From Psococerastis gibbosa (taxonomy: Eukaryota > Arthropoda > Insecta > Psocodea > Psocidae): a DNA stretch of 64,000 nt. Numbering within the stretch: position 1 is the first letter of the stretch; every line of letters begins with the position of its first letter. Shown piece by piece: positions 3,776 to 49,228 of the stretch. The stretch spans positions 12,890,855-12,954,854 of the forward strand of contig OZ020491.1 in assembly GCA_963971405.1 (NCBI GenBank). The letters run 5' to 3'. Under the pieces are notes generated by a model. It was given only the letters and a program-made list of their open reading frames with translations. It did not search any database and was not told the DNA's origin. Position numbers and translations under genes: made by a program.

Positions 3776-5390
3776 ATATTTGTATAACTTTAATTTTATC
3801 AATGCAACTTTTAACGTTGTATTGCTTATTGATTGATTGACGTAATTTTAAACCTCTCCAGCACGCATATGAGTGTATTGTGGAGCGCATTTTTTTTTTT
3901 TTTTTAAATTTAGATAATGCAGAGTATCATAACAAGTTAATGTATTCCCACGTTAGAGATCTCTTTCTGTGACCCATAGTTGATGACAATATTTACCGCG
4001 GATGTACCTACCGTATCGGTAGTTTGTATGCCTACATCACCTGAATTAATGCTACATGGGTTTATATGCACCCATTCAAAATTATTAGAGCGAAAATGAC
4101 GTGTCAAATCTACAGGATGATATCAATGATTCATTTTACTTCCCGGTCTTTACATAGGCCTCTATCTGTCAATTTGTGCATGTACAAGTTGTCAGGTTTG
4201 GCCATGGACCGTGACTTGAGTCACCAGGTTGGCCAATGTAGGTTTTTAATGGTAGCTCATAGTTAAAATACGCATTTGTATGAGGCATCTGGAAACAGTG
4301 GCGGCTTATCGCTCCACAACTAGCGTGAATAATTAATAATAATCCTTTGGTACGGTACCTAATTTAGCCTGACAGATTGAAATTATTTATCTGTGTTGGA
4401 TGGGAAAGGCCCGCATCATATTATTATACATGATATGATTATTTATGCGCAAAAAATAGATCTACGGTTTCCATTGTAGTGTTGTACTAAGGTTATATGT
4501 GGGGTACGGTACACATAGCCCAATCACCATCGGAAAAAACAGATAACATTTGATGGTAGGTAAGATGTAGGGGAAGTACCTGCCTACATATAGAACTCCA
4601 TAATACCTATAGGCCCTATATAGTGCAGTAAAAACGGTGTTATGATGGAGCCATCCGTATTTTCTTTCATTCCGTAAAAAGTTAATTCGTATGTTAAGGG
4701 CAAATGGAGCCATTTTTAGAGCAGTCAATATCTCATGAAATGTCAATCGTGATGAGGTGTCATAAACTAGAAAAATATTTCTCTTCGCTTTGATGTACAG
4801 CATATTATTATTATGTTACAGTCGCCCACAGTTATGGAACTTGATTATTATTTTTTAAATAGTCACCGAGGATGTCAGGTCAAAGGAGTTCCAAAACTGT
4901 GACCAATTACTGTTAGTCACAGTCATACACTATGCATAAAAATGAAGAGTTCCTTTTCTTCTACACTTTATGACACATCATTTATGACTCTACAATTGAA
5001 ATTTTATGAGAAATTTGACTTAGTGCAAAAAACAAAAATGCTGGGGCTCTTTAAAGCGAAAGTGACTTAATATAGCTAGTGCACTGCAACGTGCGACCAG
5101 GAATAGAAAGAAATGTTTTTTTTTTTCAATTTTATGAAAACACTGCCTAAATCGGCTTCGGTGGAAAAGGGGCAGCGTAGCGTGCTTGTACTTGCGATCT
5201 GAGACGTGTCGTAACTCGACACAAGTACCTATTAGATTTCTTAGTGAGGCGACTGAAGAGGTCAATCGGAGAGGTTCATTAAATTGTTGCTTGTAGGCCT
5301 ACCGGTATGCGATTAACCTTTCCATAAAAAATAAAAAAATGCATCTCTAGATGAAACACGATTCTTTTTGCGTGAATGTACATACATAGT
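3776..5390. other. Intergenic DNA without recognised genes
   Basis: AT-rich sequence with short open frames only. The segment near 5235-5275 (GCGACTGAAGAGGTCAATCGG) also occurs in variant form at 16430-16455, which points to another dispersed repeat. Nothing else was recognised. Confidence 0.4.
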
Positions 5391-7283: not shown

Positions 7284-7714
7284 TGATTTATTCTTGATAC
7301 AATAGCCTCTATAAACTAAATAAATATAATGAACTACATCAATTATAAAAAAAAGTATTGGGGTTATTTGTCATTTATGTTAATATAAGGTGGGGCGTGG
7401 CTAAAAAAGGTTGGGAACCGCTGGTGTAGGCTATACAGTGCAGTAGACTACATAGGAGTTTTAAATCTGAAAAAAAAACAAACAGGAACCCAACATATTT
7501 TTAAGATAAGTAGTGGTAATTTTTTAAATATAATTGGAAGACACCAGTCGCCACTGTTGGAATGCTATTAATATTGTTGTTCTACAAGCCGACAACGAGG
7601 AAAACCTCCAATGTTCTATCAGTTGCGGTTAGTCCGTACTTGACCGTTCTCAGCTGGTTAACAACTGCCCATACAAACATTTGTTTCTTAACGTATTTAT
7701 TTTCACCTGTGACT

Positions 7715-23200: not shown

Positions 23201-26200
23201 ATGTGTTTGGAACCAAAGAGCGGAGAATATAAAAATATTTCGAGGACTTTAAATCTATGGCATCAACCGGAGGTATTCGCAGAACGATTTACTGATAGAG
23301 CAACCTCATAATGGATATGTTTCATTTAAAATAACACTAAGGGACGTGAATAGAGCTGAAATTCTGAAATGACCCTTAACGTACTGCACATATTTTGGTA
23401 AGTGCAAAGAACCAATGAAGCCTAATTACAATAATTGATTAGCATGCACATGAAAGTATCGCTTTCGGGGTTTGTACCCATGTCCATCAGTTATCAGGCT
23501 TATGTATCACATCGTAGACATAGAATATACAATAAATAATGTATAAAAATCATCATTATCATTAATAGAGGGTAAGTTATGTGTCTAATGTGTGCTATTG
23601 ATTGTTGCATGTATTGTAATTACTGTTCTTCCACGGAATTCCCAATTTCATACCTTAGCGAAGTAATATTTAATTGCTGCATGCACGCTTTACGATCCCA
23701 ATAGTATGGATACAATAAACTCGCCATAGGATGCCTCTTACAGACTAGGTAGTAAACCGAGTATTTTGTCTCCGAGTAAATTCTTCTAGTTCCTAGCTAA
23801 AACATGGCAGATAGTTTAGTTTGTTTACTGTTACATTTATAAACTGGGGATGGTCTTGACGTAGACTAGCATATAACATGTTAATTTAAGTTAACTTAAA
23901 GATCAGCCAAGTTTGCACTTGAAGAACGTGCACCTATAAAATGTATTTTCTATTTTCACTTTTTAATACACCATGGTGTCAAGTTTTGTAAAATAATTCC
24001 AGCACTAGACGATAGTCAGGCTAAGATCGTTTGTATTTTCTTAACCTGACGACGACCTAGTGCTGAAGCTGGTTATTGGTATATTCCTAGTAATATTTGA
24101 CACAATGTGGGGTGTTTTTGTTTTATTAACTGCACACGTAACAAAATTGGCTATTATTTGGGCTTGAGCTCTCGACCTTCCAGTTCACAATTCAGTTTTA
24201 TATTAACTGGGCTTACCATAACCCATTGCGTGTGGGTTGACGGCATAAGTAGGGTCAGAACACATTTAATGGTAATCTACTGATAGTCACACTTGCTTGC
24301 TTCCTATCCATAACTCCTGCCAGGTACGTTCCAGTTCTTTTGTCCATAATGTTAAGCTTGTTCCATAATTTCTTCGCAGAAAAAATTCAAGAATCGGAGA
24401 ATGAAGTGAGGAATGTGCGGAAATTTGCTCAAACACTACAACAGCAACTCTCGAAATTGAAATTAGAGCGAGAACGCGATGGGCTCTTGTCCAGCCAAGT
24501 GGTGTCTGCTACCAAGAACTTAGCACAGATGGTAGTTGGTAAACTAGGTCCTGATACGGAAAAATCAGCGGAAAATCTAGAGGAAAGTATGAAAAAGGTC
24601 AGTATTTGATTTTCCTAAAGTACTCAAAATCCTTACTTTACTTTTCCGTGTCCGAGGTAAAGACTCTTTGTTTCTAGGTCCAGTATTCATACACCTTGAT
24701 ACTATTGTCGGCGCACTCCGACTTCAGAGTGCAGGTAGTGGTGCAGAGAGCGCATTGAAGCAGACATTCTCTAAACTTAGGGTAGCTCGTACCTAATGTT
24801 CAGGCCCTCATGAACGATACATGAGAGATGGCTACGGAGAGCTCTGAGCATTCAATAGGATCTTCGTATTGGAAAAAAACACCTGCTTCGGTTTTCATTT
24901 CATTCGGTGGCTTCCTTTTAGCGAAGGGATCGTCTAGCGTCGACCTATCAGGTCCCGAATTTCCAGATTACCACTGGTCAAGTATACCCTTCTTTTACCG
25001 ACGTTACAGGTCCTCTTCTTTACATGGTCTTTACGGAGGTTTTCAGTTATATTCCAGAGTAACCTAGAGTCGAGTTGGAGGTGCCCAGAACCTCACATTC
25101 CAAAGTAATATGTTCTGCTGTTTCATCTTCCATGTCTGCACAATTTAGTTCCATTATAAACACTAATTCTGCGCAGATGGTATCGGAGTACGCCTGTATG
25201 CTATTTATTGTCCTAAACGGCGACCGTCCTAATAGTGTTCTTCTTTAAGCCTTATTCGACCATTGGGTCTGCCTATGCTGACTTCAAAAAGCTCAGTAAC
25301 TTGTCCAACCAGCATGACACCACATTCGGTTTTTACTAATTTTATCTCACCTAATTTTCTCGCACGGTGAGACAGGAATTGACAGCAATGATATTGATGA
25401 GATCGCAGGCAAGCTGAGGGAATAAAGGTCTCAAAACCTTACCTTAAATTGCTTTATTAATTATATCCCCGAAGATCGCTTTTTATACATGTGGGCACAA
25501 AACCGATCGGGCGTACCCTGGGCAACGTTAAGTGGAAACATCTAGCGTCTAATCCTTTCACCCCCGAGAAGAGACCAAAGGCTTCCATGATCTTTGGGTG
25601 TGCACCGACTATGACGTCACGTTGGCAGAATACTAGGTCCTGAAACTGGGAGTCTCTACCTCGGACACGAAAAAGTAAAGTATCCCAAAAATAGCACCCA
25701 TGATTAACTTACAGAGAGAGGCGTACCTTATCATGTGTTATTTTATTTTTATTCATTTCACGACGAAAGAGCTTTGTTGATCATTTTGAATTATAATGAA
25801 GTAGGCTTTGATTGGACTAATAGCCATAATGTGGGTGTAGCTTATCAATTAAAGTTGCTGTAAATTCAAAAATTATTTATGGCGGGAAAGAATGGTCTAT
25901 CCAATCCAACCAATCAACAATCGGAGCGAGGATTCTCCATAAGTTAATCATGGGCGCTATGATTGAGAATTCAAGTTCTGTAGGAAAGTTGTCCATTCAA
26001 CACTTCCTCTGGTACTGGACCCACTCTTCTGAGATCGTCCTCAATTTAAACATAAGTAAGTCATAAGTAATTACTGTATACATGTAAGTCAAGTGCTCCG
26101 TCAAGTTCTTCTACAATAATTTTATGGCAATGCAAAAAAACACTCAAATTTGTAATGCTTTAAAAGCGTTGGGTATTATCATTGACCATTGTCCCTGAAC

Positions 26201-29200
26201 TTATCTTAGTAAACAGTACAAGTAATCAGAGTGGTTATCAGAATGGAAATGTGCACTAGTTTGGACTGTTCAATACCAGCATTTAGTATGAGATTTAAAT
26301 TTTATAAAATTGTATGTAATAAACTTATGTAGAACATAATATGTAATATGCAACGGGAAATTGTTTCTAGGCCAAAGAAGACTCGGACAATATACGTTCA
26401 TTAGTGATACCTTTAGAAAAACAAATCGAAGAATTAAAAGAAAAACTAGCGGAATCCGAAGACAAAGTTAGAAAATTAGAAAGTTCTAGCAGTAATGAAC
26501 CAAAATTAATAAGCTGGTCTGCGAAATCTAGTCTAGATGCTGATGTTGGGGGAGTGTCTGGCTTGAGCCCGTCCAGGAGCATGGGCTGTGATATGTGTGC
26601 CAACTATGAAACGCAGCTGCAGGGACAGCAGGAGAGGGCGCTGTCGCTGCAGCGGCAAAAAGAGGCGATCGAGGCCAACATGAATAAGTTTAAGGATGAC
26701 CTTGCGAAAGAGACTCAGTTCCGCAAAGAAATGGAAGATAAATGGAATGAAAAGAAAGAGGAACAGAAATTACAGGTAAGGTTTGATAAGGGGTGGAAAA
26801 TTGATAATAAAAAAATTAGGTCATTTAAAGTAGTGGTATGGACTCCAACTGTCACCCGATGGATCGTCGTTGGTTCGAGTCCCACACTTGCAACATTTTC
26901 TGGCCATACTTCGGAGGACATGTAAAGCAGGTGCCGGGTCTTCCTTGTTGCGTGTAAGAGATGAGATGGCTTTATATCCCTAACTCCGCTAGGCTGGTTT
27001 TTTAATATAACATAAAGTTTTTATACAGCGATTTATGCTATTTAATATTGGAACTCTTGTTGATGGTAAAGGGACAACTGAAGAGGAAAACCTAGGCTAG
27101 GTGTACTTTTTCTTTAGTCGTACTCTATCGATTGGTTCGCATTCATCTCTGTCCTGGGCCGTTCTATTGAGTTCCAAGTAGCTTCCGCATCTCGTGAGGT
27201 CTTCTACGTGCGCCCAAGGGTAACCTGTTCGGTTAGATAGTTGTGTAGTTGTGCTAACCTGTCTAGCAACACGAATCACGTCAATTTGAGCATAAGTAGA
27301 GGACTTAGCGATTACTGGACTAGTCGGGGCTTGTGGTCCAGCGGTTAAGACGACGCCCCGGTTAGGCGTAGATCGTGGGTTCGAATCCCGCCAAGCCCAA
27401 TTTTTTCCATATCCTCTAATTTCGGTTATAACGAGGAGGTTACCTCTTCAACCAAAGTTAATTTAATGTTAGCGTTATATATACCATATAATACTACAAT
27501 GTAGTGTCCTGAAACTTGAGTTATCTAGCATCATTAATTAAACCCCCAAAATTTGGACACGTGAAATTGGAATACAGAAACGACGGTAAATTGTGATATT
27601 ATTGCGTAATGACGTCATCATGCTTCTTGATCCGTTAGTTGGCCGCTGCTCCATGGCCGCGCTGAATTTTTTACACATTTCCATTTCGGGTGATATACTG
27701 TATGGGTATCTTATAATGACGAAAGAGGGGTTTTTATTGCTGCAAACCTTCGCAGTTTAGGGACGGATCGAAATTTCTACTAGATATCGTGATAAATTTT
27801 TTTTTTTTGTAGGTTATGCAACTAAAAACCGAATTGCTGGACTCACAGAAAGAAGTGGGAGAATTGCGCACGGCGTTTACGAATTACCAAGGTGTGGTTC
27901 GCAGCAAATTTAATGAGTTGTCGTTTAATAGGCGAGAAATTAGTCAAAAAATGGAGGCATTACAGCTGGCAAATGATAATCTCGTCGGTAAACATTCGAA
28001 ACATTCGGAACAACTTCGCAATGAGTCTATTAATTTCCCAGATACCGTAGGAGAACTACAGGTAAGTATTTTTCATCTTTAAGGCGGCTATTCCACTTGT
28101 CAGTTTTTCTTCATTTTTGATAATGTCAATAAAAGACGATTTTTGTTTTAAATTTTTTTCCAATTTTTATAAGTTTGCCGCCGTATTTCTTTAAATGCTA
28201 TATTCTACAAGAAATTTTAGGATTTAAATTATGAAATAATTAGTTTGTTCTCAAAAAATTAATTACAATTATTTATCATCTCCAGACGACGCCATTGCTT
28301 AATTTTAGTTTGTTATTGTTTGCAAAACGTAATTTTACCCTCTGATAATTGAACAATTTTAACATGCGGAAGTTAAAATGGACAATGACATTGAGTAAAA
28401 CCAAAATCTCATCAATTATTGACGCACAAATGACAGAATATTGGCAAGTGGAATGGCCGCCTAACCTTCTTTAGGCTGGGTTCGATAATCAATCAAGCTC
28501 CGATTTTTGAGTAATTCCTCTAGTGAAATCATATATTTTGCTCTGAGCAATTTCGAGTCAATCGGGCACCCACATTGGTCCCATTGTTATTGTAATTTTT
28601 TTTTACAAATAAAGTTCCATAACTGGCCAATCGGCCACATACTAAGTATCAAAATGTTGAGGATCGCTCTTCTTTCTTACTTCTTAGTACAGGGCTTCCA
28701 GCTCAGGTGATGACGACTCCCTGAAGTCTCAGAAATGCCCTTGATGCTACTGTCCACTTGCTCGGCGTGCACAGGATCTTTTGATGTCCACCCTTCTTGT
28801 GTCCAACGAGATCGCGTAGTTTGTCCCGATGTGTGCATGGGGCCGAGCACTGCAGGAGTATGTGCTCCAGTGTCCCATTAGATAGACCACATGCTCGGCA
28901 TACTGGAGATTCGATTAGATGGAAACGGTGCAAGCATTCATTGGTAGTAATGGGGCCTGTTCTTGCTCTAGCAGCAAAGGATGCAACGCTTCTGTTTATC
29001 CCGCGATATTGTACTGCTGAAGCCGGCTTAGGTTGTATTGCGTAGAGGGCTCTACCAGTGGGGGAAACCCTCCATGTCTGTATCCATTCTTGAAGTAGGA
29101 CTGTTATTTTTACAGTGTGTTAATGAAAACTGTGGCTCTTGAATTGGTGCCATTTTTGCCGCATCTTTTGCCGCTATTCTTTCTACTAATTCCTTATTGA

Positions 29201-32200
29201 TAGCTCTACGAAATTTCCTTTGAAATTGTATTTTCTATGCCTGTAAGGTTTTTCCCCTCCAATTGTCCCTTAATTGGATCTGTGTTTTCTTTTTGTCTGA
29301 TTGTTGGGTGTACTAATGCTGTATACCGTTGTTTCACTGTCATTTTTCAAACGTTCGACAACTTATCATTTACTTTACGATAATACTGGGATATACGCAA
29401 TTCTGCGTATGGAAACTTTCAGGCGTACAGTGGGGGGAGGGGGGGGGGATATTATGCTTGGTAAAATTTCCAAATGGAATTCCACTCAGATTTTTGACCG
29501 TGCGAGTTTAATAGCTGTCGTTGATTTTTCTCTGTATTTCCACCCTTCAACCATTGACTCATTCTATGATTTTGGACTAGGAGCTCCTTTTGAAGCTGCA
29601 TGAAGATCTCATAGCTGCCAAGGTGGGCAAAGAAGCCAAAGAAGAGGAAGAGAGGACGCTGAGGGATGAAGTTACTTTGTTGAGAGAGCAGATGCTTCGT
29701 GATCTGGAAGAGAGGAGAATGCTAGAGAGTTCTTTGAATGAGGAAAATACTCATCTCAGGTATGTTTTTAAGAGGATTTGCTACGTAGATAATTGGCACC
29801 CCAAAATTAAATAGTTTTCATTTTTTTATTTAATTAACTCTGCAAGTTATTAAAAATTTGGCTCACTTACTGTAAGTTGTAGGAGACGACTTCGTGCATC
29901 ATGTAATCCGGTATTTTTTACTATTCGGTTTTGTATTTTTTCCAAAAATCCCAGATTACGCGAAATTTTAGTCCCCTCTGGCGTTTATGAAAGAACTAAG
30001 GTAACACAAGTTTAATATTTCTTATTAGTATATGATGCATGAAGTAGTCTTCTACAACAAATATTGGGGTGCTAATTTTATAATTAGCATGTCCTCTTAA
30101 GCGCTATACTTAGGATTAATTTTTATCCAACCCCTTTTGTCTTTTTCTCGTCGAAACCGGTTAGGTTTGGCAACTCTTACTGCTTCAATGCCGTTTGGGT
30201 TATTGTAACTCGGTTCGTCCCCTTTTTGTAACATGAGGTTTCCCATTGTGTGGTGGGCAGTGTAGGAGATGCAGATCGAGGGGAATTAATATCACCGTAC
30301 GTATTTTTCACAGGAAAGAATTAGATCAAATGAGAAGAGAGTTAGGAAGAACGCAGAAAGTAATAAAAGAATTGGATATTGATACCATGAATCACAAAAC
30401 CGAAAGAGCTAATTTTCAAGAACAGCTTAAGGCTTTAACTGCTGAAAATGTAAGTAATATTGAATATAAAAATACGATTTCCACCTTATCTGAATGTTGA
30501 CGATTACTTTGTAAAAAAAAAAAAAAAAAACTGGACAAATTAAGTTCTGCTGTTGATCCAGTAATTGGATACACTGAGCTCAGTCACACAGAGATTCAGT
30601 GGTAGTTTCCTCGTGTAGCTGGTGGTACTCACCATTAGCCTCATACAGTCAAAAGCAAGCTATTTGGATTGCGAGTTACGTGCATCTAAATCTACTGGTC
30701 CTGCTATGCCGTTTAATATTAACATATTCTGGGGTTAAAAATGTAAACAAACCAGTTTTGAATAGTACTTTCCATTCTAAAATTATCTTGTTTACATTTT
30801 AAATCCCACGTTAATACTAAACGGCATAGTAGGCTGCTGTTGAATTGTTCATTTTCTCTCATTTCCACAATTTTTTTTTTTTACGTTGGAACCCTACAAA
30901 GAGGAAACGCTTCCCCCATCGCGAGGTTGCCAAATTTCCCCAAATGTTTCACCGCTGTCGGCAATACTTAGCTTATGGCTTGGCACCGTCTATTCTATTT
31001 CATTATCGTTGATTCCTATACTTCCGTAATAGACCGGGTGCCACCAATCCTTTGGTTCTCTAAAAGGGTGGCAAATTTTCACACTATGTTCGTAATAGTC
31101 CATGGGCTGGATATGCCGAAAAGGGATTTCTGGCTGGCGAGAGCGGTAGCATTTGGACAGGGGATTTTTTTTTCGAAAATGTTTTTTGACGAAAATTCAC
31201 TAAACGAGTGGCACGTTGAGATGCTACCAAAATAACTAGTGGCACTCGAATATAAGTGGAAACTTCATGCCAGAAGATTTTCCCAATGGGAACCCCTTCC
31301 CAGAGGGTGGTTAAATCAGTTGTGGGTACCAAAAATTCGCTGAAGAGGTGGCAAATCAAATTTACCTCTATGTGTAAGCTTGTCGCCTGACAATCATAAA
31401 AAACAGTATGCCAGACGTTTTTAGCAACAGCAACCCCTTGCCAGAAGGGTCGAAAATTTATCCTAGGGTGCTTTTTGTTAAAAGGGTGGCAGTGGAAAAA
31501 CCATTATACCGTATAGTACTCATGAATGTAATGATAGAAATCTTAGTCACAGACATTTTAAGTGCAGTGGGGGTTGATGTCACCAGCCAAAGTGAAAAAT
31601 TAGCTGAAAAGGTGGCAACTTAATTTCTCCGTATACATCTTTAGATACTTCGTATTCATATTAGAAATTTTTGTCCCAGAAGTTTTCTCATACTTTTTCC
31701 CCAACAAGAAGGGGTAGTAATTTATCTGGGGTGGGTTTTCACTGTAAGGGTGGCATGGAAAATCCAACATACAATGGTTCATTTGTGCTAATTTATGGCA
31801 GGAAACAACCCCACAGAATATTTTAGGGTAGTTAGGGGTGATCCAGAGGGGTGGAAAGTCCAATACAGAGGGGTAAAACTGGCTGAAGAGGTGGCAATCT
31901 GAATCGTAGCTTAAATGTCTTAAATTGGTGTCTGTGTTAATATGTTATTGGTCACAGACGTTATATTCGGTGTCTACCCCTCCCCAGAAGGGGTAGAAAT
32001 CTACCTGGGGTGGGATTTCACTATAAAGGTGGCATGAAAAATTCAACGCGAAATAGCTGCTTCTTGCCCATATATGGCGGGTAACCATATGCCAGAATAT
32101 TGTAATGTGATTAGGGGTGATCCAGAGGGGTAGTAAACCATAAACTCAGGGATAAAATTCTTTAAAGAGGTGGCACCTTGAAATTTTGCTGTGTGTTTGT

Positions 32201-35200
32201 ATATTTAAATACATGTACGAAAAAATTGGTCCCAGAAATTTTATGCGGTGCCAACCCCTCCCCAGAGGGGGTAGAAATTTATTTGGGGTGGGTTTTCACT
32301 GAAAGGGTGGCATGAAAAATCCAACATAAAAAGTTCCTTTGTGCTAATTTATGGCAGGAAACAAACCCACAGAATATTTTAGTGTAGTTAGGGGTGATCC
32401 AGAGGGATAGCAAACCAAAAACTGAAAATTACGTGAAGAGGTGGCGCCTTGAAATTTTACTGTATGTTAGTATATTTGAATATATGTATAAAATACTTGG
32501 TCCCAGAAATTTTATGCGGTGCCAACCCCTCCCCAGACGGGGTAAAAGGAGGAGAGACAATTTTATTAGCTAAACAGGTATTTGTGCCAGTCTCTAATAT
32601 TGATCCATTCATATTACCAATACCATTGGCCTACATTTGAAACGCACTTATCCCCAGTGGCGAAATACAAAATATCCCCAGTGCGGGGGGGGGGGGGGGG
32701 GGGCTACCAACCAACCAACTCTACGTTCAATTCGACGAGAAAGAAATTGTTAACCCCGTAGCCTAATTTCGAATCTTTGGAATTAAATTGCTTCATTTTT
32801 TTAATTGGTGCCAATTTTTAACATAGCTTCCATGTCTTGTTTATGCAATTTAGTCGAAACTTGCATTTATATTATTTTCAGACAATGGTGCCAGTGATAC
32901 AAATTGGTAATTTAATTTTTTATGATTCTGCCTATTTTACTGATAGACTTATTCTAAAAACGTATTCTTTACGCTTAACAAGGTCGTTACTTAATATTAC
33001 ATGCAACATGTTATATATTCCATCGATCCTAACCCATAGTGCTAGGACAGGGTGATTTTTGCTTAACCGGTGAAAGTACAATAAGCGCTTCGCCAATATA
33101 TTTGGGCCTCAATTCATGCTCACAGCTTGTACTTTTCTCTCGGCTCGTAGGCTTATGTGTATAGGCGAACTTATATTATTACTTTAGAATATTGGGAAAC
33201 AAAGAAGAGGTCGTTTGGTTGACATATTATGTAAGCAAAACCGAGAATGCAACTGTAAAAGCTAATTTAGAAAGCCGCTGGTACGGTGTCAAAGAGCAAT
33301 TGGGAGGCATAAAGAATATGATTAAGAATACATCAGAACTACATCTGAGAGCGGACAGAAGAAGACATAAAGTGTCTACGGCCGATTAAATTATTGCGCT
33401 TTTAGAGGAGGAACGAAAATGAGTGTCGAGGGACCGCAGTAGTAGTAGTAGTAATAAATTTGGCAAAGTCCCATGCCATGGTGAGGGCTCGCAGGACACT
33501 CCCCATCTTGATCACTCAGACAACTCAATTGCAGCAGCGCAGCTGTTTGCCTGCCTCGAATCCTCCCTTAGCGAAACTAACCGAGGTAAGACGTCCTAGC
33601 CACGTGCCACCCGGTCTCGGCGCCGATCGGCCGGAGTCCTTCAAGGGAATCTGCACACCCATGCGATCATTGGGTACCTATCTCCCGAAGAAACGTTTCA
33701 GGGTGGCCGTTGTGTGGAGCTCTTCGGTCAAGCAACCCGGTAATTCTCAATCGATGCAGCCAGTGACATGCTCTGTATTCCAGATACGCATACAGTGGTG
33801 GCAAGCCCAATAATGCCTCAAGCGCAGATGGAGGAGTTGATGGCATTGCCCCAGATATTGATATACAAGCCAGTCTTTTTATTTTCACCAGCTTCTGCTT
33901 GGATGTCTTCAGCGACGCCCTTTTCCATCACACACGCAGCCACAACAGCCACATGAAGCCACCTCATCACTTTTGTTGAAAGACCCCAGGTACTTGCAAA
34001 ACCAACCTGTAGGCTCCTATGAACCGAGCATGCCGTTACTATTGCTGAATCTCATTGTCTGTTCCATAGAAGCTTCAAATCAAGATGAACTCCCAAGAAC
34101 TTAACACATTTTGTAGATAGAACTTCTTGAACTTCGGTATAGTGCGAGTGAAAATTTTGCAAAAATTCAATAGGCTTATCGGGAGACTTCTTTGTCAAGG
34201 GCACAGGTTTATCGATGGTTCAAGGCATTTTCCGAGGGTCGGGAGATGTTAGAAGGCGGACCCCACAGCCGAAGACCTTCAACTGCAAAGTTGAATTGAA
34301 AACATTGACAAAGTGCGGGCCCTTGTGCGTTACGATCGACGTTTGACAGTCAGAATGATCGCAGATAAATTAAATTTAAACCACACAACTGTTAATCTTC
34401 GAAAAACGGTCATGCGAGGCGACCTAACAACAAGAACAATTGGGTGCTGCATCATGACAATGCGCCTTGTCACACAGTGATGTCAATCAATGAATATCTG
34501 ACCAGTATAAACTCTTCAACCTCCCCATTCACCCGATGTGAGTCCTTGTGACTTCTTCCTGATCCCCAGGATCAAGAATGAGCTCAAAGGACGCCATTTC
34601 GGTACCACTGAAAACATTAAATCCGCAGTAAACTGGAGGCCATCCAATAATCTGAGTTCCAGCACTGCTTTGAAGAGTGGAAAAGCCGCCTCCAGCGCTG
34701 TATCAACGCACAAAGGAACTACTTCGAGGGATATCGAATTGAAATCTAAATATATTTTAATTTGCTATACAACATTAAAACAACCATTCTGGGTCCACGA
34801 ATATCAGTCAGTTTGGCATTTCTTTTAAGTAACTTTTAAAACTACCACCAGTTTTTAGTTTAAAGCCGAACTGTTCTGCCACCACGTTCACATCAATTAT
34901 AGGCTATATTCTCTTTTAAATTATTTTCAGGAATATTTATAGCGTATGACTTACAAAGCAGATCGTTCTGTGAATTGTGTTTTTTCGGCTTGTTGTCAGC
35001 CTGATTAATACGAAACATGCTCTACTTCATGATAATTATATACTGCGGCGGATTCGATTCCATACTCCTCATGTCTCTTTTCGTCGTAGAGGTTTTGAAC
35101 ATCTTCCACCCATGTCGCCAGCTTGCCTTGCAAAGAAGTGATTACATTTCCCTGCCTGTTTAAGAGTCTTAGCCTAACCGATTTCCGTCTTTTCATGTTT

Positions 35201-38200
35201 TTTGTTTCCTTTATCCTCTTGTGGACATTAAACGAGTTGCGTCTGTTCTCCATCTCTAACATGACCCTGCAGTTTCGTTTTCCATTCGTCTCCTTGAAGC
35301 TGACGTTTCTTCACTTTTTGATGTCAACCCAACCTGTTTAACGGAAGAAAGTGTGACGCATGCTTCGGGAATGTTTTCCTCGTTTAAATCGCCAGACAGA
35401 AATAAAATCTTCCCCATACTCCTACAAAAATAAATTCGTGAGGTTACTAAATTCCTTGCGGCGATTTATAAGGGCTGCTTAAGGTTTAGCTCGAGGTTGC
35501 TTCGGGAAATCCTGGGGAATGTCCCCTAAAATGTTGAGGTGGTTCTATGTCACAGTCATACGGCCAACGCTGTTGTACGGCTGTCACGTATGGTGGAAAA
35601 GATCACGACTCATCACCTTTCAAGAGCAACTGAGAAAGTTGCAGAGAACAGTATGCATAGCAATAACGGGAGCCTTACGGTCAACACCGACAGCTGCATT
35701 GGAAGTGCTGTTAGAGTAACCACCACTGCACTTGGTAATCGAAAATGAAGCATGGATAGCTGTTCAAAGAATGTTTACGGTTAACGCCTTACAGCCCAGA
35801 CTCCCGTTTGCTGGACATGCGCTTGAACTCTTGAAACTGAGGAAGCAAGAACTGTCAATGCCATGTGACAGATTGGCGAAAGGCACAATTTTTCACTGTA
35901 TTTTTCAATTTTTCAATGATTTTTCAAGATCGTGACCAGTGGAGTTGTGAGACGGAATCAGATACTGATCTGGTATGGTATACTGACGGGTCTAAGCAAA
36001 ACGGGAGATCGGGTTTAGGCGCGCACTGTGCAGAACTGAAGGCAGAGATAGTACGACCACTGGGAAGGTTTGCCTCAGTCTTCCAGGCTGAAGTGCAAGC
36101 AATCGCTGAGGCAATGGAATGCTGCATGGAAAAGAAAGTGTCCAACAGGAATGTAATAGTGTACTCTGATAGCCAAGCTGCTTTGCGAGCAATTTCCAAC
36201 CCTGTGGTGACATCAGCAGTCGTGCAAGACTGTAAAAATCTGTGCGAAAAGGTACGAGGTTCTAACCGTGTGCATCTCATAGCGGGCACGAAGGGAACGA
36301 AAGGGTGGACGAGCTGGCTCGTGAAGCGTCTAACACCGATCCATATGGACCTGAACCAATTCTTCCCGTACCCTGGACAACCGTAATGACCAGAATCACG
36401 TCGGAGTTGATCGGGAACTTTAATAGGTGCTGGAATGAGACGCTCGGAATGAGACACTCAAAAAGGTGTATTGAGGGTCCATGCACAAAATTACGTCTCA
36501 ATATGCTAAGCCGCGGCCGAAATTCCACAAGAATCGTAACGGCTCTGATGACTGGCCACAGATCCTTCCTTACGGTTGTCCAGGGGTTAACGCTACGGGG
36601 TTAACAATTTCTTTCTCGTCGAATTGAACGTAGAGTTGGTTGGTTGGTAGCCCCCCCCCCCCCCCCCCGCACTGGGGATATTTTGTATTTCGCCACTGGG
36701 GATAAGTGCGTTTCAAATGTAGGCCAATGGTATTGGTAATATGAATGGATCAATATTAGAGACTGGCACAAATACCTGTTTAGCTAATAAAATTGTCTCT
36801 CCTCCTTTTACCCCGTCTGGGGAGGGGTTGGCACCGCATAAAATTTCTGGGACCAAGTATTTTATACATATATTCAAATATACTAACATACAGTAAAATT
36901 TCAAGGCGCCACCTCTTCACGTAATTTTCAGTTTTTGGTTTGCTATCCCTCTGGATCACCCCTAACTACACTAAAATATTCTGTGGGTTTGTTTCCTGCC
37001 ATAAATTAGCACAAAGGAACTTTTTATGTTGGATTTTTCATGCCACCCTTTCAGTGAAAACCCACCCCAAATAAATTTCTACCCCCTCTGGGGAGGGGTT
37101 GGCACCGCATAAAATTTCTGGGACCAATTTTTTCGTACATGTATTTAAATATACAAACACACAGCAAAATTTCAAGGTGCCACCTCTTTAAAGAATTTTA
37201 TCCCTGAGTTTATGGTTTACTACCCCTCTGGATCACCCCTAATCACATTACAATATTCTGGCATATGGTTACCCGCCATATATGGGCAAGAAGCAGCTAT
37301 TTCGCGTTGAATTTTTCATGCCACCTTTATAGTGAAATCCCACCCCAGGTAGATTTCTACCCCTTCTGGGGAGGGGTAGACACCGAATATAACGTCTGTG
37401 ACCAATAACATATTAACACAGACACCAATTTAAGACATTTAAGCTACGATTCAGATTGCCACCTCTTCAGCCAGTTTTACCCCTCTGTATTGGACTTTCC
37501 ACCCCTCTGGATCACCCCTAACTACCCTAAAATATTCTGTGGGGTTGTTTCCTGCCATAAATTAGCACAAATGAACCATTGTATGTTGGATTTTCCATGC
37601 CACCCTTACAGTGAAAACCCACCCCAGATAAATTACTACCCCTTCTTGTTGGGGAAAAAGTATGAGAAAACTTCTGGGACAAAAATTTCTAATATGAATA
37701 CGAAGTATCTAAAGATGTATACGGAGAAATTAAGTTGCCACCTTTTCAGCTAATTTTTCACTTTGGCTGGTGACATCAACCCCCACTGCACTTAAAATGT
37801 CTGTGACTAAGATTTCTATCATTACATTCATGAGTACTATACGGTATAATGGTTTTTCCACTGCCACCCTTTTAACAAAAAGCACCCTAGGATAAATTTT
37901 CGACCCTTCTGGCAAGGGGTTGCTGTTGCTAAAAACGTCTGGCATACTGTTTTTTATGATTGTCAGGCGACAAGCTTACACATAGAGGTAAATTTGATTT
38001 GCCACCTCTTCAGCGAATTTTTGGTACCCACAACTGATTTAACCACCCTCTGGGAAGGGGTTCCCATTGGGAAAATCTTCTGGCATAAAGTTTCCACTTA
38101 TATTCGAGTGCCACTAGTTATTTTGGTTGCATCTCAACGTGCCACTCGTTTAGTGAATTTTCGTCAAAAAACATTTTCGAAAAAAAAATCCCCTGTCCAA

Positions 38201-39487
38201 ATGCTACCGCTCTCGCCAGCCAGAAATCCCTTTTCGGCATATCCAGCCCATGGACTATTACGGACATAGTGTGAAAATTTGCCACCCTTTTAGAGAACCA
38301 AAGGATTGGTGGCACCCGGTCTATAAGCATACATTAATAAAATTGAAGAAACTCTGTGTTTCTGTGTACTCAATTTCTGGTCCAACAGCAGGTATGCCAA
38401 CATGCAAGCATTAGGTAAATATTATACAATGCATTTCTGCCCTTTCTCGTGATAGTAGAAACCAGGTTAGGTTGGGTTCCATGGCGTACCGCTAATAGTG
38501 AGCTTTAACTGTGCAGAAAAAGAATAATGAAACCATTGTGGAGCTGAAGAAGTGTGTGGCGTCTCTGCAACATGAACTTACCAACAGCGAAGACGTGCAG
38601 AAGGATTTTGTGCGACTGTCACAGTCGCTGCAGATCCAGTTAGAACGGATACGTGGTGAGGACCGGCAGGTCCGGTGGCAGCACGATGAGGACGTAGCCG
38701 AGTGTTCCCAATGCAAGAACGAATTCACCTCCCCGAAGCAAAAGGTGAGGTTGAACCCATAGACTAGATGCAGAAAGGCTACTGCAGCGCCGTACTATCG
38801 TGGAGACATGGTACAATCCATTGCAACCAATGGGTTGATGCGGTGCACAAAGTTGAAGCCCATTGTCAGCATGGTACTCAGCGATAGTAGCGTATAGGCG
38901 ACACTGAGCTAACCCCCAAATACAGCGGCAGTAGTGTAACCAGGCATCAGAATAAAGATTAGAGTATGTTGGAACTAAGACACTGACTGCAGGGCGATGC
39001 GTTCGCGACATTAATTCACGAAGTCTGTCTATTAATCTACGAGTAACTGATGACGTGTGAGGTTTGAGCTTTTGCGCCATTTAAAACTTAAAATGTAAGA
39101 AAAAATAAGGTAGGTGGTATATATTCAATTTAAATGCCACACTCTTTTTATTAACTATACCTTGGCATTTCGTTTAGAACATGCCTCAGCCATTTTCTTA
39201 CGATAACACTGGAGAGATCCAACCCATAATAGTGTCCTTTGAACAAACGGAAATGGTGAACTGCGTCAGTTTAAATTCTAAGTGAAGCTGATACTAAATC
39301 TATTTATTTGACTTTTTAGATACACTGCAGGCACTGTGGGCAAATTTTTTGTCGCCACTGCGTGCCTTTTACCATTCCCAGTGGGCCAAACCAGCGACCT
39401 AGTAAGGTTTGCCAGGTCTGCCACACTCTCCTCAACAAAGACTCTGCACCATACTTCAGTCAAGATGCTCCACATTCTCCAGATTAG
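20203..39487 (+). CDS. RABEP1: Rabaptin-5-like Rab effector with C-terminal FYVE finger, nine exons
   Basis: Effector of Rab5/Rab4 in early-endosome fusion and recycling. Exons: 20203-20263, 20705-21001, 24380-24597, 26371-26775, 27813-28061, 29581-29759, 30314-30449, 38517-38744, 39320-39487. They sum to 1941 bp (646 aa plus stop) in one frame. Most of the protein is coiled coil. Rabaptin landmarks: FNAQRAKMQRMFLQKEEEL near the start, GCDMCANYETQLQ (exon 4), LVGKHSKHSEQL with LPDT-like FPDTVGELQ (exon 5), and VQKDFVRLSQSLQIQLERIR (exon 8). The end is a FYVE-type finger: WQHD (the WxxD motif, residues 569-572), CSQC, IHCRHCG (one His short of the usual HHCR), FCRHC and VCQVC, eight zinc-binding cysteines. 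Vertebrate RABEP1 lacks this finger, but FYVE-bearing rabaptins are known in invertebrates. Intron 7 contains the 7.3-kb foldback. Confidence 0.92.
21212..21490. mobile_element. Inverted-repeat MITE (TGTACAGCCCGTAGGAAATT ends)
   Basis: The ends are inverted repeats of about 95 bp: TGTACAGCCCGTAGGAAATT is mirrored at the right, and both arms continue through 'ttaattaactaagcatgtta'. A half copy lies at 52975-53170 and a diverged relative at 29767-30101. It lies in rabaptin intron 2. Confidence 0.8.
21655..23200 (+). repeat. Region with recurring ACGGAGTGGAGA-like motif
   Basis: Variants of (A)ACGGAGTGGAGA or CGGAGTTGAGAAA recur at about 21659, 22613, 22630, 22798, 22988 and 23176. The intervening DNA is AT-rich and not obviously repeated. 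It may be an old degraded tandem array or one unknown element. It lies in rabaptin intron 2. Confidence 0.35.
24003..24130 (+). repeat. Stem-loop repeat with hammerhead-like remnant
   Basis: 'agcactagacgatagtcagg' is mirrored by 'cctgacgacgacctagtgct'. The right arm reads CTGACGA, then CTAGTGCT, then GAAG. The sequence after it (agtaatatttgac) also follows the related copy at 46.2 kb. The GAAA of a hammerhead core is changed here, so this copy is probably inactive. Confidence 0.5.
24633..25682. mobile_element. Non-autonomous TIR element of about 1.05 kb in rabaptin intron 3
   Basis: Its ends are inverted: TTACTTTACTTTTCCGTGTC on the left and the near-exact mirror on the right, with the match running through CCGAGGTA(A/G)AGACTC. 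It encloses an antisense LINE scrap (25060-25320) and no transposase. It starts about 35 bp after the exon 3 donor. Confidence 0.7.
25060..25320 (-). pseudogene. LINE C-terminal knuckle fragment
   Basis: The minus strand reads CADMEDETAEHITLEC, the Cys/His knuckle that follows RNase H in I-superfamily LINEs. Stops interrupt the flanking frame. It is carried inside the TIR element at 24633-25682. Confidence 0.6.
25691..25960. mobile_element. MITE with ATAGC(A/G)CCCATGATTAACTTA ends
   Basis: Inverted ends of about 20-26 bp: ATAGCACCCATGATTAACTT on the left and its mirror on the right. A truncated relative in the opposite orientation lies at 57487-57630. It abuts the TIR element to its left. 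Confidence 0.7.
26828..27012 (+). repeat. tRNA-derived SINE, copy 2
   Basis: It has an exact B box GGTTCGAGTCC and the body 'cattttctggccatacttcg', collinear with 5391-5586, with more changes and a small deletion. It begins about 50 bp after the rabaptin exon 4 donor. Confidence 0.75.
27105..27215 (-). repeat. Short LINE-like tail fragment
   Basis: The minus strand reads YLELNRTAQDRDE, matching the fragment at 15620-15730. It abuts the tRNA-bearing repeat to its right. Confidence 0.45.
27224..27503 (+). repeat. Repeat with internal tRNA cloverleaf, copy A
   Basis: A 280-bp unit starting CCTGTTCGGTTAGATAGTTG and ending 'accatataatactacaatg'. It is collinear along its whole length with 58483-58763 and inverted at 58190-58367. 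About 100 bp of conserved non-tRNA sequence lie on each side of the tRNA-like core, unlike a usual SINE where the tRNA is at the 5' end. Confidence 0.8.
27327..27399 (+). tRNA. tRNA-like cloverleaf, probably a pseudogene inside a repeat
   Basis: The acceptor stem GGGCTTG/CAAGCCC is perfect. The D arm (GTC/GAC), anticodon stem (ACGCC/GGCGT) and T arm with TTCGAAT all form. The loop is CCGGTTA, so the anticodon would be GGT (Thr), but position 33 is C instead of the near-universal U. No CCA-ready context or introns. The loop differs among the three copies, which argues against a working tRNA. Confidence 0.45.
28083..28461. mobile_element. MITE, GGCGG family, next to rabaptin exon 5
   Basis: The ends GGCGGCTATTCCACTTG and mirror CAAGTGGAATGGCCGCC are flanked by TAA duplications (28080-28082, 28462-28464). 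The interior is AT-rich and non-coding. It begins about 20 bp after the exon 5 splice donor. Confidence 0.85.
28700..29290 (-). pseudogene. LINE ORF2 3' fragment
   Basis: The minus strand shows HRFHLIESPVCRACG then LEHILLQC, the C-terminal Cys/His knuckle. Further upstream (29200 to 29100) is NKELVERIAAKDAAK, like the end of an RNase H domain (GN..AD..AK). Frames are broken between them. It lies in rabaptin intron 5. Confidence 0.7.
29767..30101. mobile_element. MITE related to the 21.2-kb element
   Basis: Inverted ends: TTAAGAGGA...TTGGCACCCCAA on the left is mirrored by 'attggggtgctaat...tcctcttaa'. The interior carries 'gatgcatgaagtagtcttctacaa', shared with 21212-21490 and 52975-53170. 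It starts 8 bp after the exon 6 donor of rabaptin. Confidence 0.65.
30700..30833. mobile_element. Short foldback MITE
   Basis: CTATGCCGTTTAATATTAAC on the left is mirrored by GTTAATACTAAACGGCATAG on the right with two changes, and the pairing continues through ATGTAAACAA. The element is 134 bp and non-coding. Confidence 0.75.
31029..32762 (+). repeat. Left arm of the foldback, with internal tandem units
   Basis: Units of about 275 bp repeat within the arm. Their landmark GAGGTGGCA/C recurs near 31345, 31610, 31888, 32167 and 32440, and TAGGGGTGATCCAGAGGGG recurs near 31830, 32113 and 32388. Units differ from one another far more than the two arms do. The short open frames have no known domain. 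Confidence 0.85.
33192..33420 (+). pseudogene. Unidentified broken coding fragment in the foldback centre
   Basis: The frame VVWLTYYVSKTENATVKANL, then SRWYGVKEQLGGIKNMI, then RRRHKVSTAD and, after a stop, IIALLEEERK reads like charged protein-coding sequence. I do not recognise the family. An AG precedes it at 33186-33187, but it does not fit the rabaptin frame or alignment. Confidence 0.35.
33650..34140 (-). pseudogene. LINE reverse-transcriptase thumb fragment
   Basis: The minus strand reads VKFLGVHLDLKLLW, WGLSTKVMRWL and KIKRLACISISGAMPSTP followed by ALEALLGLPPL. This order is typical of the end of the RT domain in I-superfamily LINEs. Frames are broken. A related piece of opposite orientation lies at 35480-36590. 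Confidence 0.75.
34170..34760 (+). pseudogene. Dead mariner transposase
   Basis: Two ends of a mariner transposase are present and the middle is deleted. The N-terminal part shows YRWFKAFSEGREMLE-like and VRYDRRLTVRMIADKLNLNH, the helix-turn-helix region. The C-terminal part shows WVLHHDNAPCHT (the second catalytic Asp), SPCDFFLIPRIKNELKGRHF and FEEWKSRLQRCI. Several frameshifts separate them. Terminal repeats were not found. Confidence 0.85.
35480..36590 (+). pseudogene. LINE fragment: RT thumb plus RNase H
   Basis: MSPKMLRWFYVTVIRPTLLY, then RTVCIAITGALRSTPTAALE (thumb), then an RNase H domain (WYTDGSK, FQAEVQAIAEAMECC, YSDSQAALRAI), then GPEPILPVP. Frames are interrupted more than once. 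Its 3' end is cut exactly where the right foldback arm starts (36592), so the foldback boundary lies inside or against this LINE. Confidence 0.8.
36592..38324 (-). repeat. Right arm of the foldback
   Basis: Reverse complement of 31029-32762 with a one-base shorter G-run. Single differences include positions matching 31086, 31222 and 31268. It ends about 190 bp before rabaptin exon 8. Confidence 0.85.
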
Positions 39488-40290
39488 TGGACTACTGTGG
39501 CCCTATTGTGCAACAGTGCAGTGACTCACACCTCCAACTCTTTATCCAAATATAGGAGAATTCGAATTTCCTAGTGGTACACTTACGCCGTCTGCTCACT
39601 GGCATATGTTGCATGCTTAGCAGGTGGTCACTGCGGTATTCACCGATCTCAGGAGAATCCTCAACTGGCAAGAAAAGATTAGTGGTGCTCAGCGGTGTTC
39701 GGAACTGAAATCAATCATCAGCAAAAAGTACAGCCTAGGCCTACTTGGTTGAAAATATATCAAAATAGATTCTTCCTTTGGAAAATATATTTCGACATTA
39801 AAAAATGGTGTAAACTACGAGTACAGTTTCGCGATATTGTGAACCACCTCAGTGAGAATTCCGCCGATAAAAGTCTGCGTTCTATAGCGTGCAGCCGGTA
39901 GTTACTTACTTTAACAGGGGCGGAGCCAGGCTAGCAAAATGGCTATCCACAGCTCAGTCAATCAACGATTCCGCACTCCGCAGTTGTGACCCAGCGAAAG
40001 CAGGATGTTCTTGCCATCAGCCTAATACATTTAAAACCAAGCTTGCCAACCGAGACTCATGCAATCAACAGCAAACATCAGTTGTGACGCAACGGTCAGG
40101 CGCACAGAACGTCTGCGCATCATTTCTGTTGCCATTTTTGCAAGAGGTAAATGAGCAGATGAAAATTTCTTTGACATTTTCATCTACGCTTGCCCGCTAT
40201 CGGCTATACCAAGCATATGGTCTGATGCGATCTATTCTATCCTACTATTGTTGGGCGGAGATCTTGCCTAACCATCGGACGTAAAATATA

Positions 40291-40296: not shown

Positions 40297-40799
40297 ATTA
40301 ATTAACGCAAGAAGTTTAAAATTGGTATACTGGTTTTAATTTTTATTATTTGTTTGCAATTTAGAATTACCAATTTTATTTTTTTTAATAATTTGGCCGT
40401 TTTAGGTAAAACTGATTTTGACGCTTAACTGTCACGGCTTGAATGCAAATAAAAATAAGCAGCGGCATCAGCTATTAACACTGACTTCACTGGTTTTAAT
40501 TTTATTTCGGTAATGTAATTACAAATATCATTTTGCCTTAATTTTGTGTACAGTACACTAGGCCCATAATAAAGCAGGATTTATGCATGATGCAGATTTC
40601 ATCAGCTAAAATACTTATTCAAGCATTCTAGGTGTATAAAACATTTAAAAATGTGAATGCCCTCTTCATACATTACGATTGAATTATATTTATTGTTCAG
40701 ATATTTTAAATGAAGATTTGTTTTGTAATTAACTATTAGTTGGCTATGTCAGTACCCTACTTCTGAAGTTCGCGTGGAATTATGTCGGCATTTTGCTAA

Positions 40800-41190
40800 G
40801 GCGGGGATTCCACCGACCTGCAAGTGCAAAATACAAATACGGTGACGTGGTAGCAGACATTCAAGACTTAGGCGGGGTTTCCACCGACCTCGCATTGCAG
40901 AATGCAAATGACATTGACGGAAAGGTTTATTTTCCTCGATGCCATAGTTAAAATTGATCAATGATCATACAGTAAAATCACAAACAAACTAAAATTAAAA
41001 AATGGCGTCATGGGATATGTTAAGTACAAACATTTTAATAGATTACTATAAAAAGAAAAATTTAAATTTCTGTCAATGTCATTTGCATTCTGCAATGAGA
41101 GGTCGGTGGAAACCCCGCCTAAGTTTTGAATGTTTGCTACCACGTCACCGTATTTGTATTTTGCACTTGCAGGTCGGTGGAATCCCCGCC
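40800..41190. mobile_element. Nested palindromic MITE, GGCGG family
   Basis: The outer arms (40800-40867 and 41123-41190) begin GGCGGGGATTCCACCGACCT and are mirrored. Direct TAA triplets flank the element. Inside sits a second complete inverted-repeat element (40871-41119) that begins GGCGGGGTTTCCACCGACCT and continues 'cgcattgcagaatgcaaatg'. This hairpin within a hairpin recurs at 47228 and 48465. Confidence 0.85.
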
Positions 41191-41254
41191 TAAAGGGGAA
41201 GTACAACCACGAAAGTACGAATGGTACCGAGATAGATAATATGAGTAGTTCCAT

Positions 41255-47227: not shown

Positions 47228-47607
47228 GGCGCCCATTCCATTGACCGGCTAGGGCTATTTCCAAAAACAGTGACGTGGTAGCAGACATTCAAGACTTAGG
47301 TTGCATTTCCACCGATCTCGCATTGCAGAATGCAAATGACATTGACGGAAATTAGAATTTTTCTTTTTATAGAAATCTATTAAAATGTTTGTACTTAACA
47401 TATCCCATGACGCCATTTTTTAATTTTAGTTTGTTTGTGATTTTACTGTATGATCATTGATCAATTTTAACTATGGCATCGAGGAAAATAAACCTTTCCG
47501 TCAATTCTGCAATGCGAGATCGGTGGAACCGCAACCTAAGTCTTGAATGTCTGCTACCACGTCACTGTTTTTGGAAATAGCCCTAGCCGGTCAATGGAAT
47601 GGGCGCC
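47228..47607. mobile_element. Nested palindromic MITE, GGCGG family (diverged ends)
   Basis: The outer ends are GGCGCCCATTCCATTGACCG and mirror. The shared 'gtgacgtggtagcagacatt' and inner 'ctcgcattgcagaatgcaaa' match the 40.8-kb copy. TAT triplets flank it. Confidence 0.8.
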
Positions 47608-48464
47608 TATGTAAAAGAACAACTTGCATATAGAAATAAAACAAAAGCAGTTGGCCCTCCAATGATGAGCGGGTCAATTCCTAATTGTAACTTATGAGGG
47701 ACATATCGCTCACAAATATTGTAAACAAAAGCCAAATATTATTTTTTTTCGCGTTGTTGCTTCAAAATAAGGACACAAAGATTCAAAATTGAGTAAATTG
47801 TTTTTTATGTGAATAATTATCACCATTACTCATAATGTAAGATGACAAAGCCTACAGTACATTACAATATTTTTCAACAGTATTTTGCACTTTTTTTAAG
47901 ATCTAGGCCTAAATATTGAAAGTGGTTCTTTGATCTTCTATTTATGCCTGCTTCTTTACATTCCCACAATATCTTCATATTTAAAAATGAACCACTGTTC
48001 AGGTCCTAATTATCCTCTTGAACAAATAGATGCGATGTGCACCTCTTCATAAGTTAAACGTTTATTTTACGCCAGACCCGCTGCTGTAACCGACGTTTTT
48101 AAATGGGCCCTAAGGAGTAAGCCAATATCAAATAATAACATTATATCAGTAGGCTGAATTTTCTTATTACTGACAATTATTATGATTCACAATAATACTG
48201 TATATAAGAATAAATATAAATAAATGTAGTCTTATTATTATTAATGGTAAAGTATCGTATTTTTTGTTTTTACATAATTTATTACATTAAAAATATAATT
48301 AAAATTACTTAAAATCGTAGCAGGCTAGGTACGGTAGTTAACTGATGAGCCTCCAATCAGCCACATCAAGCAGTCGCAACGTTTCAATCAAGAGGCGATA
48401 AGTATTTTTATTTTCATTTTTTGGGCCCGGTACAGACGAACACGAACGAGTTTTTTTTTTATTT

Positions 48465-48854
48465 GGCGGGGATTCCACCGAACGGCTAGGGCTAAATACA
48501 AAAACGGTGACGTGGTAGCAGACATTCAAGACTGCGGGGTTTCCACCGACCTCACATTGCAGAATGCAAATGACATTGACGGAAATTTGAATTTTACTTT
48601 TTATAGAAATCTATTAAAATGTTTGTACTTAACATATCCCATGACGCCATTTTTTAATTTTAGTTTGTGTTTCTGATTTTACTGTATGATCATTGATCAA
48701 TTTTAACTATGGCATAGAGTAAAACAAACATTTCCGTCAATGTCATTTGCATTCTGCAATGCGAGATCGGTGGAAACCCCGCCTACGTCTTGAATGTCTG
48801 CTACCACGTCACCGTTTTTGTATTTAGCCCTAGCTGGTCGGTGGAATCCCCGCC
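48465..48854. mobile_element. Nested palindromic MITE, GGCGG family
   Basis: GGCGGGGATTCCACCGAACG and mirror, with the same inner hairpin as the copies at 40.8 and 47.2 kb. T triplets on both sides could be the target duplication. Confidence 0.8.
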
Positions 48855-49228
48855 TTTTGGAAAAGGCGCGGATAAAGTAAAGTAAAGTACTGTATCAAGT
48901 ATCAATACGATGTAGCATGCAATTTAATATATACGTAGCAGAAGATTTCTTGTCGATTTCGGAAGCCAACCGCAAGAAATTACAGTTTTCCCCTCAACAC
49001 GCCAGCCCATAAAAATTGCATCAAAGAAAAGTCGGAAACTCGCGCGTGTCGAATCGTTCGTGCCCATAGGCGGCGCGGCGCGAAGACGGTCTCGGCGCCT
49101 TTGGGCACCAGGCTATAGTTGACAATTAAAAATAAAAAATTTATCGAGCAATACTAAAAATGTATTAAAAAGTCCATCTTGCTAAAATGGGACACTTACT
49201 AATAAATTTCAATACAAATTTAACTAGC

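Follow-up and report, generated by a model that had tools for sequence, protein, structure and literature searches.

The window analysed here is a 64,000-bp stretch of the Psococerastis gibbosa genome (assembly GCA_963971405.1, contig OZ020491.1, positions 12,890,855 to 12,954,854 of the forward strand), and it contains no N letters. It carries a rabaptin gene, identified by Pfam matches to Rabaptin, Rab5-bind and FYVE, one intron of which (30450-38516, with exon edges placed by eye) holds a 7,294-bp insertion at 31030-38323 with termini TAGACCGGGTGCCACC and TAA on both sides. The insertion is a copy of a cut-and-paste (terminal inverted repeat, TIR) DNA transposon; we consider it probable that it is a non-autonomous element of the foldback type, the arms of which have been kept alike by break repair templated from one arm to the other. 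Gene and insertion are laid out as follows (window coordinates, with strand where one applies):

from 26371: rabaptin exon upstream of the insertion (Rabaptin E=2e-08, above the cut-off; Rab5-bind E=4.5e-08, slightly below the cut-off)
30314-30449, + strand: rabaptin exon preceding the insertion (reading frame, splice sites by eye)
31027-31029: target site duplication TAA, left copy (flanks read)
31030-32762, + strand: left arm (terminal inverted repeat), 1,733 bp, with terminus TAGACCGGGTGCCACC (self-alignment, terminus search)
31039: single inverted GGTGGCA in the left arm
31067-32312, + strand: array of nine direct GGTGGCA motifs (starts 31067, 31347, 31485, 31611, 31749, 31890, 32028, 32169 and 32306)
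31707-32544, + strand: three units of about 279 bp in tandem, matching one another at 74-81% (self-comparison)
32763-34130, + strand: continuation of the left arm, with no counterpart in this copy's right arm
34129-34755, + strand: broken mariner-like fragment (91-93% genome matches elsewhere; HTH_23 E=0.0049, under the curated cut-off)
35491-36569, + strand: retrotransposon fragment with an RNase H part (RNase_H E=2e-08 at 35841-36383; other genome copies exist)
36570-36591, + strand: junction of a probable internal deletion, with filler repeating GGGGTTAAC of the arm edge
36592-38323, - strand: right arm (terminal inverted repeat), 1,732 bp (self-alignment)
38324-38326: target site duplication TAA, right copy (flanks read)
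38517-38744, + strand: rabaptin exon following the insertion (Rab5-bind E=4.7e-14)
39320-39487, + strand: final rabaptin exon (FYVE zinc finger E=2.7e-08)

A prior sequence-only reading of this DNA had described, within a rabaptin intron, near-identical inverted arms of 1.73 kb that differ by about three substitutions and the length of a G-run and are built of strongly diverged repeat units. Each of these points is borne out: the Pfam matches and the flanking exons (30314-30449 and 38517-38744) place the insertion inside a rabaptin intron; the arms (31029-32762 and 36592-38324) are 99.77% identical in inverted orientation over 1,734 aligned positions, differing by three substitutions (left-arm positions 31090, 31225 and 31266) and one G fewer in the G-run; and the tandem units within the arms (271-279 bp, at 31707-32544 and 36809-37646) match one another at 74-81%. 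The extent proposed there, 31029-38324, needs trimming by one position at each end, since the outermost A/T pair (31029, 38324) is part of the TAA duplications and the element itself is 31030-38323. Near-identity over 1.7 kb cannot have arisen by chance.

The interior of the window copy holds, in order, the left-arm continuation, the mariner-like fragment (a name that we assume from its motifs), intervening sequence, and the RNase H fragment, which we read as a non-LTR (long terminal repeat) retrotransposon. In 9 of the 14 other copies compared, co-linear arms reach 2.2-3.8 kb, and several other copies carry the segment at 33000-34130 in each arm, as an inverted repeat; the right arm of the window copy has therefore probably lost its inner part by internal deletion, and the junction at 36570-36591 resembles end joining with templated filler. 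Counting both orientations, GGTGGCA occurs 10 times in the left arm, at a spacing of about 140 bp for most, whereas 2,000 single-base shuffles average 0.13 and never exceed 3; the 3.8-kb interior holds three, and the motif is present in the terminus too, as TGCCACC. The array is a presumed transposase-binding array by analogy with the THAP domain of Galileo, which has multiple binding sites in the long arms of that element (PMC3688188).

A search of the window's own assembly (409 Mb, 68 contigs) reveals a dispersed family. When the arm's outer 372 bp served as query, 40 matches at 98-100% were scored from 105 candidates, many of them in +/- pairs. The 20-bp terminus has 39 exact matches in the genome; allowing up to 3 mismatches it has 73 forward and 70 reverse, compared with 1 and 2 for a reversed-pattern control, a count to be read with the caveat that many of the three-mismatch matches are a different sequence, TGGACCGGATGCCACCAATG. 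The copies read, which are part of the family, comprise 16 paired copies (the window copy and those at 15 other loci) and three that are unpaired in their stretch. The sequence-only reading, which proposed looking for further copies in the genome, had treated the palindrome as a feature of the rabaptin intron; it does lie in that intron, but it represents a DNA transposon that is dispersed through the genome and flanked by target duplications, and other copies are many, with 39 exact termini and 15 further paired loci.

Identical 3-bp duplications stand immediately outside TAGACC...GGTCTA in 16 of 16 paired copies (TAA, TTA, TAA, TAC, TTT, TAG, CTA, GAA, TTA, ATG, TTA, ATT, ATA, CAG, TTA and AGA); TTA or TAA accounts for 6 of the 16. 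The duplication of the copy on contig C14 is counted between its outermost termini, its inner left terminus having TAT, and the two ends of the C3 copy sit in two loci. Because conserved termini are found at many sites, with matching 3-bp duplications in all 16 cases, the insertion is assigned to the cut-and-paste transposons. Arms equal to or longer than those of the window copy occur in 10 of the 14 other copies compared; long arm matches of other fetched copies are about 97-98% identical to the window arm; and larger relatives of 13-22 kb have the same ends. That chimeric long reads can yield perfect palindromes is the general ground for suspecting an assembly fold-back at the window site, an account that is practically out of the question here given flanks that differ on the two sides, the TAA duplication, arms that really differ, a 3.8-kb interior that is not symmetric, and the individual duplications of 15 other paired copies.

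Other observations on the family concern single stretches. At L044 4530-7323 the AGA duplications match, the left end keeps about 30 bp of arm, and the right arm is about 1.58 kb. A 24.7-kb pair on C2 was considered as one copy and rejected: over the 10 kb read, neither the window copy nor L046 finds a match in it, and the pair probably consists of ends that do not belong together. A 16-mer also occurs in two viral contigs, which we take as chance.

If the intron is transcribed, the rabaptin precursor messenger RNA (pre-mRNA) could fold into a 1.73-kb duplex; the earlier suggestion that the arms can pair there holds, in that both lie in one intron and on the sense strand. This allows the proposal of a functional hairpin-RNA locus, at which an intron duplex 99.8% complementary over 1.73 kb would be cut by Dicer-2 into small interfering RNAs (siRNAs), or edited by ADAR, and would silence the family or regulate the host gene; with arm matches of other copies at about 97-98% identity, such siRNAs could reach the family. 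We regard a role of this kind as improbable: the element alone explains the structure, arms elsewhere being as long or longer in 10 of 14 cases, and nothing in the sequence argues for the role specifically or shows selection for the intron. With a transposon of foldback type as the preferred reading, the duplex in rabaptin pre-mRNA would probably be a by-product.

Since copies descending from a master element without exchange between arms should have left arms nearest to left arms, the arm tree is informative. In all 14 copies that offer two usable arms, left and right arm group as each other's sisters (midpoint-rooted tree; support for the sister pairs is 0.854-1.0, with 1.0 for the window copy and none given for C1_40810; the sister arms of C14_4033 are owed partly to an inverted duplicate in that copy). 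The outer 1.2 kb shows 36 private changes common to both arms and 33 confined to one; of the 34 arm-to-arm differences there, 33 are private to one arm and 1 is common to another copy. Over arm positions 1-1500, 54 private substitutions are on both arms versus 33 on one, a count in which the C14_4031 piece is not treated as separate from C14_4033 and C15_560 is excluded; all private-change counts exclude columns with fewer than 20 letters. The window copy has nine shared private substitutions, at arm positions 424-1402, and three one-arm changes, at arm positions 61, 196 and 237. The pattern is thus one in which the arms of each copy evolve in concert, one being rewritten from the other, and because the arms of a copy are sisters and share private changes, mutations in an arm appear to be either copied to the other arm or removed, in the copy itself or in unsampled sources. 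Of the two explanations offered by the sequence-only reading, namely that the arms are recent copies or are kept alike by gene conversion, these results point to arms whose likeness has been maintained in the copy or in its recent ancestors.

A gradient runs along the arms. Arm-to-arm divergence is 0.382% in the outermost 300 bp, 0.297% at 300-600, 0.071% at 600-900, 0.026% at 900-1200 and 0.069% at 1200-1733, i.e. homogenisation is most complete inside and least complete at the outer ends. For left arms of different copies, the same bins taken from the outside in give 0.77, 0.96, 1.30, 1.04 and 2.75% (C15_560, the G-run region 1640-1690 and any column holding under 8 letters are excluded from the bins); faster mutation near the ends is rejected as the cause because the divergence between copies does not show the arm-to-arm trend. 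For the test of the gradient, 47 substitutions were merged to 44 (C1_1394 2459-2461 becoming one, and C14_4033 3616/3619 one), and C15_560, with a 323-bp arm and zero differences, was excluded. The outer 600 bp hold 29 of the 44 differences versus 13.3 expected, a number reached in 0 of 200,000 simulations (32.6 kb of arm). Without three gap-bearing copies the figure is 24 of 37 versus 11.9 expected (p=4.5e-5), and without these and the two most diverged copies it is 15 of 23 versus 7.0 expected (p=3.7e-4).

The assembly itself could in principle produce such a gradient, if reads anchored in unique flanks keep the outer differences while inner ones are averaged during assembly or polishing. 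Scaffold gaps of 200 N lend this some weight: three paired copies have one close to the centre, and a fourth copy, of which one end was read, has one about 3.6 kb inside (L025 3826-4025; L026 3853-4052; L029 3-202; L043 4020-4219); palindromes of the family do coincide with assembly breaks and trouble the assembler. A consensus artefact is nevertheless improbable as the source of the gradient, which persists when the gap-bearing copies are removed; private changes on both arms are not producible by averaging between copies, and scaffold-scale contiguity suggests reads longer than most copies.

One copy, at C14:4031421-4043659, carries host DNA within its palindrome. Its outermost ends are flanked by an ATA/ATA duplication, and its left arm consists of 1,023 bp, followed by 1,430 bp of the right host flank in inverted orientation and then by a full terminus with a 3.6-kb arm. 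The inverted host part is 100% identical to the true right flank over 1,430 bp, and across 3,631 positions 3 substitutions and one 4-base gap separate the inverted arm duplicate from the right arm. On the simplest account, a broken left arm would have been restored from the right arm, from the inside outward, by synthesis that continued past the terminus into host DNA before its product was end-joined to what remained of the left arm. As a separate observation, BLAST matches recur every ~96 bp in and beyond the inverted host flank (stretch L052, to ~2180), which suggests a tandem array.

The same locus bears on the possibility that arms are equalised only at transposition, when excision or gap repair reconstructs the element from a single arm, and diverge independently afterwards. 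The 33 of 34 arm-to-arm differences that are private to one arm fit that proposal; it predicts uniform divergence, however, where the observed divergence is about 5 times lower inside, and at C14 the outer duplication survived even as the left arm, on our reading, was rewritten in place. We judge it unlikely.

For the window copy, then, arm-templated break repair in a foldback transposon remains the reading that we favour. For the family, we propose the following with confidence a little short of even: it is a foldback family with a 3-bp duplication, not yet assigned to a superfamily, whose palindromes are built and kept identical by outward arm-templated repair, which leaves a gradient and occasionally overruns so as to make host DNA palindromic. 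A transposase supplied in trans would bind both the conserved termini and the GGTGGCA motifs, moving the element by cut and paste. Upon a break inside the element, the inner broken end would invade the opposite arm as a template; synthesis would proceed outward, over a distance that varies; and the newly made strand would rejoin its own arm or be end-joined, one locus having a product that overruns into the host. A gradient is expected from repair that starts inside and stops at random distances, and the outward direction is suggested by the gradient together with the C14 locus. The same repair could also account for arm growth, for the capture of passenger fragments, and for internal deletions like that of the window copy.

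Several points weigh against this scheme. Two copies lack the gradient: the two differences that C14_4033 retains after merging both lie deeper than 600 bp, and the arms of C1_36030 do not differ at all. The gaps near the centres of three paired copies count here too, and the outward direction is drawn from a gradient and one locus. By raw identity, the right arm of C19_18168 is nearer to an arm of another copy (99.61%) than to its own partner (99.56%). Conversion shows no GC bias, with 20 AT-to-GC and 22 GC-to-AT among the shared private changes, and those changes may have been inherited from unsampled sources, which would move conversion to an ancestor. Finally, no transposase was found in the copies read, so that movement in trans is an assumption of the scheme.

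The hunt for a transposase covered stop-to-stop frames of at least 170 residues in 20 stretches, and shorter frames in parts of three of the larger relatives (13-22 kb; L045, L046 and L048/L049); no candidate emerged from these copies, which are part of the family. The coding frames of copies and larger relatives were rejected as passenger fragments, a nested pogo-like transposon, and pieces read as an LTR retrotransposon. PF13359 (DDE_Tnp_4), the transposase model expected of a PIF/Harbinger member, has many matches in the genome, and none of those listed (150 of 220 candidates scored) lies, as judged by eye, inside the terminus-bounded copies listed from among the 143 terminus matches. PF02992 and PF07592 (Transposase_21 and ISAzo13-type), which we take to stand for CACTA/EnSpm and Zator, gave no genome match, and likewise none in 14 control genomes; PF20231, whose link to Academ is our guess, gave no match and no positive control either. 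The pogo-like gene on C15 was rejected as the family's transposase, being a nested insertion with its own TA duplication. It sits in a 22.6-kb relative (L049 4167-5399 into L048 1-1347; C15 ~7895807-7899167) and has a long open frame (DDE_1, HTH_Tnp_Tc5 and HTH_psq in the L049 part), a TA duplication, and ends AGGTAACGGACC. Also in L048, a 387-bp inverted pair (3849-4235 and 7649-8035) is 100% identical and lies near LTR-retrotransposon-like coding pieces.

By structure the family combines the conserved inverted ends at many sites and the fixed-length 3-bp target duplication of a TIR transposon with a foldback build, in which very long inverted arms, repetitive inside, enclose a variable middle. 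Three bp is also the duplication length of PIF/Harbinger, and a duplication of that size points to enzymes like those of Harbinger, CACTA, Zator or Academ. It is shorter than the 7-8 bp of Galileo and the P superfamily (PMC4168063) and the 8-10 bp of Tetris, a Drosophila foldback that its authors consider Mutator-like and for which no autonomous copy was found (PMC4079207). Nearest in build, on the descriptions compared, is Galileo (P superfamily, Drosophila), with near-identical arms, passenger insertions and many non-coding copies (PMC3573991, PMC4168063, PMC3688188): its same-copy arms are 98-100% identical and have been proposed to lengthen by repair that uses the opposite arm (PMC3573991), and gap repair and template switching have been invoked (PMC4168063). 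Transposase-bearing copies of Galileo exist, whereas none was found in the copies of the present family that were read; the inside-out gradient and the host-flank overrun are seen in the present family and in neither case in the Galileo descriptions compared. Tetris, as described, is alike in its foldback build, ~220-bp tandem repeats in the arms, non-coding variable middle, and lack of an autonomous copy. The palindromes of mammalian X chromosomes undergo arm-to-arm gene conversion that is GC-biased and have arms more than 99% identical (PMC8981503); they are not transposons, and no GC bias was seen in the present family. In the titles and abstract openings of the literature searched, no foldback family with a 3-bp duplication appears, which does not prove that there is none.

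Elsewhere in the window, a transfer RNA (tRNA) match at 27327-27399 (Rfam, 57.6 bits) lies inside a 281-bp repeat (27223-27503) that recurs at 58482-58762 with 95% identity, which suggests a tRNA-bearing or tRNA-derived mobile repeat; at gathering scores, Rfam finds nothing besides this one tRNA in 26000-40000. Three palindromic repeats of ~390 bp (40798-41194, which contains GGCGGGGTTTCCACCGACCT; 47228-47613; and 48462-48856) are 87-92% alike, with arms of ~104-138 bp, and are probably a family of miniature inverted-repeat transposons.

Together, these results bear on how foldback palindromes grow and persist. Arm growth in Galileo has, in the descriptions compared, been argued from structure; here a single genome gives a quantitative trace, in the form of a gradient opposite to the divergence between copies, and the C14 copy looks like a frozen intermediate. 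For the host, palindromes of this family place long potential duplexes in introns and coincide with breaks in this assembly.
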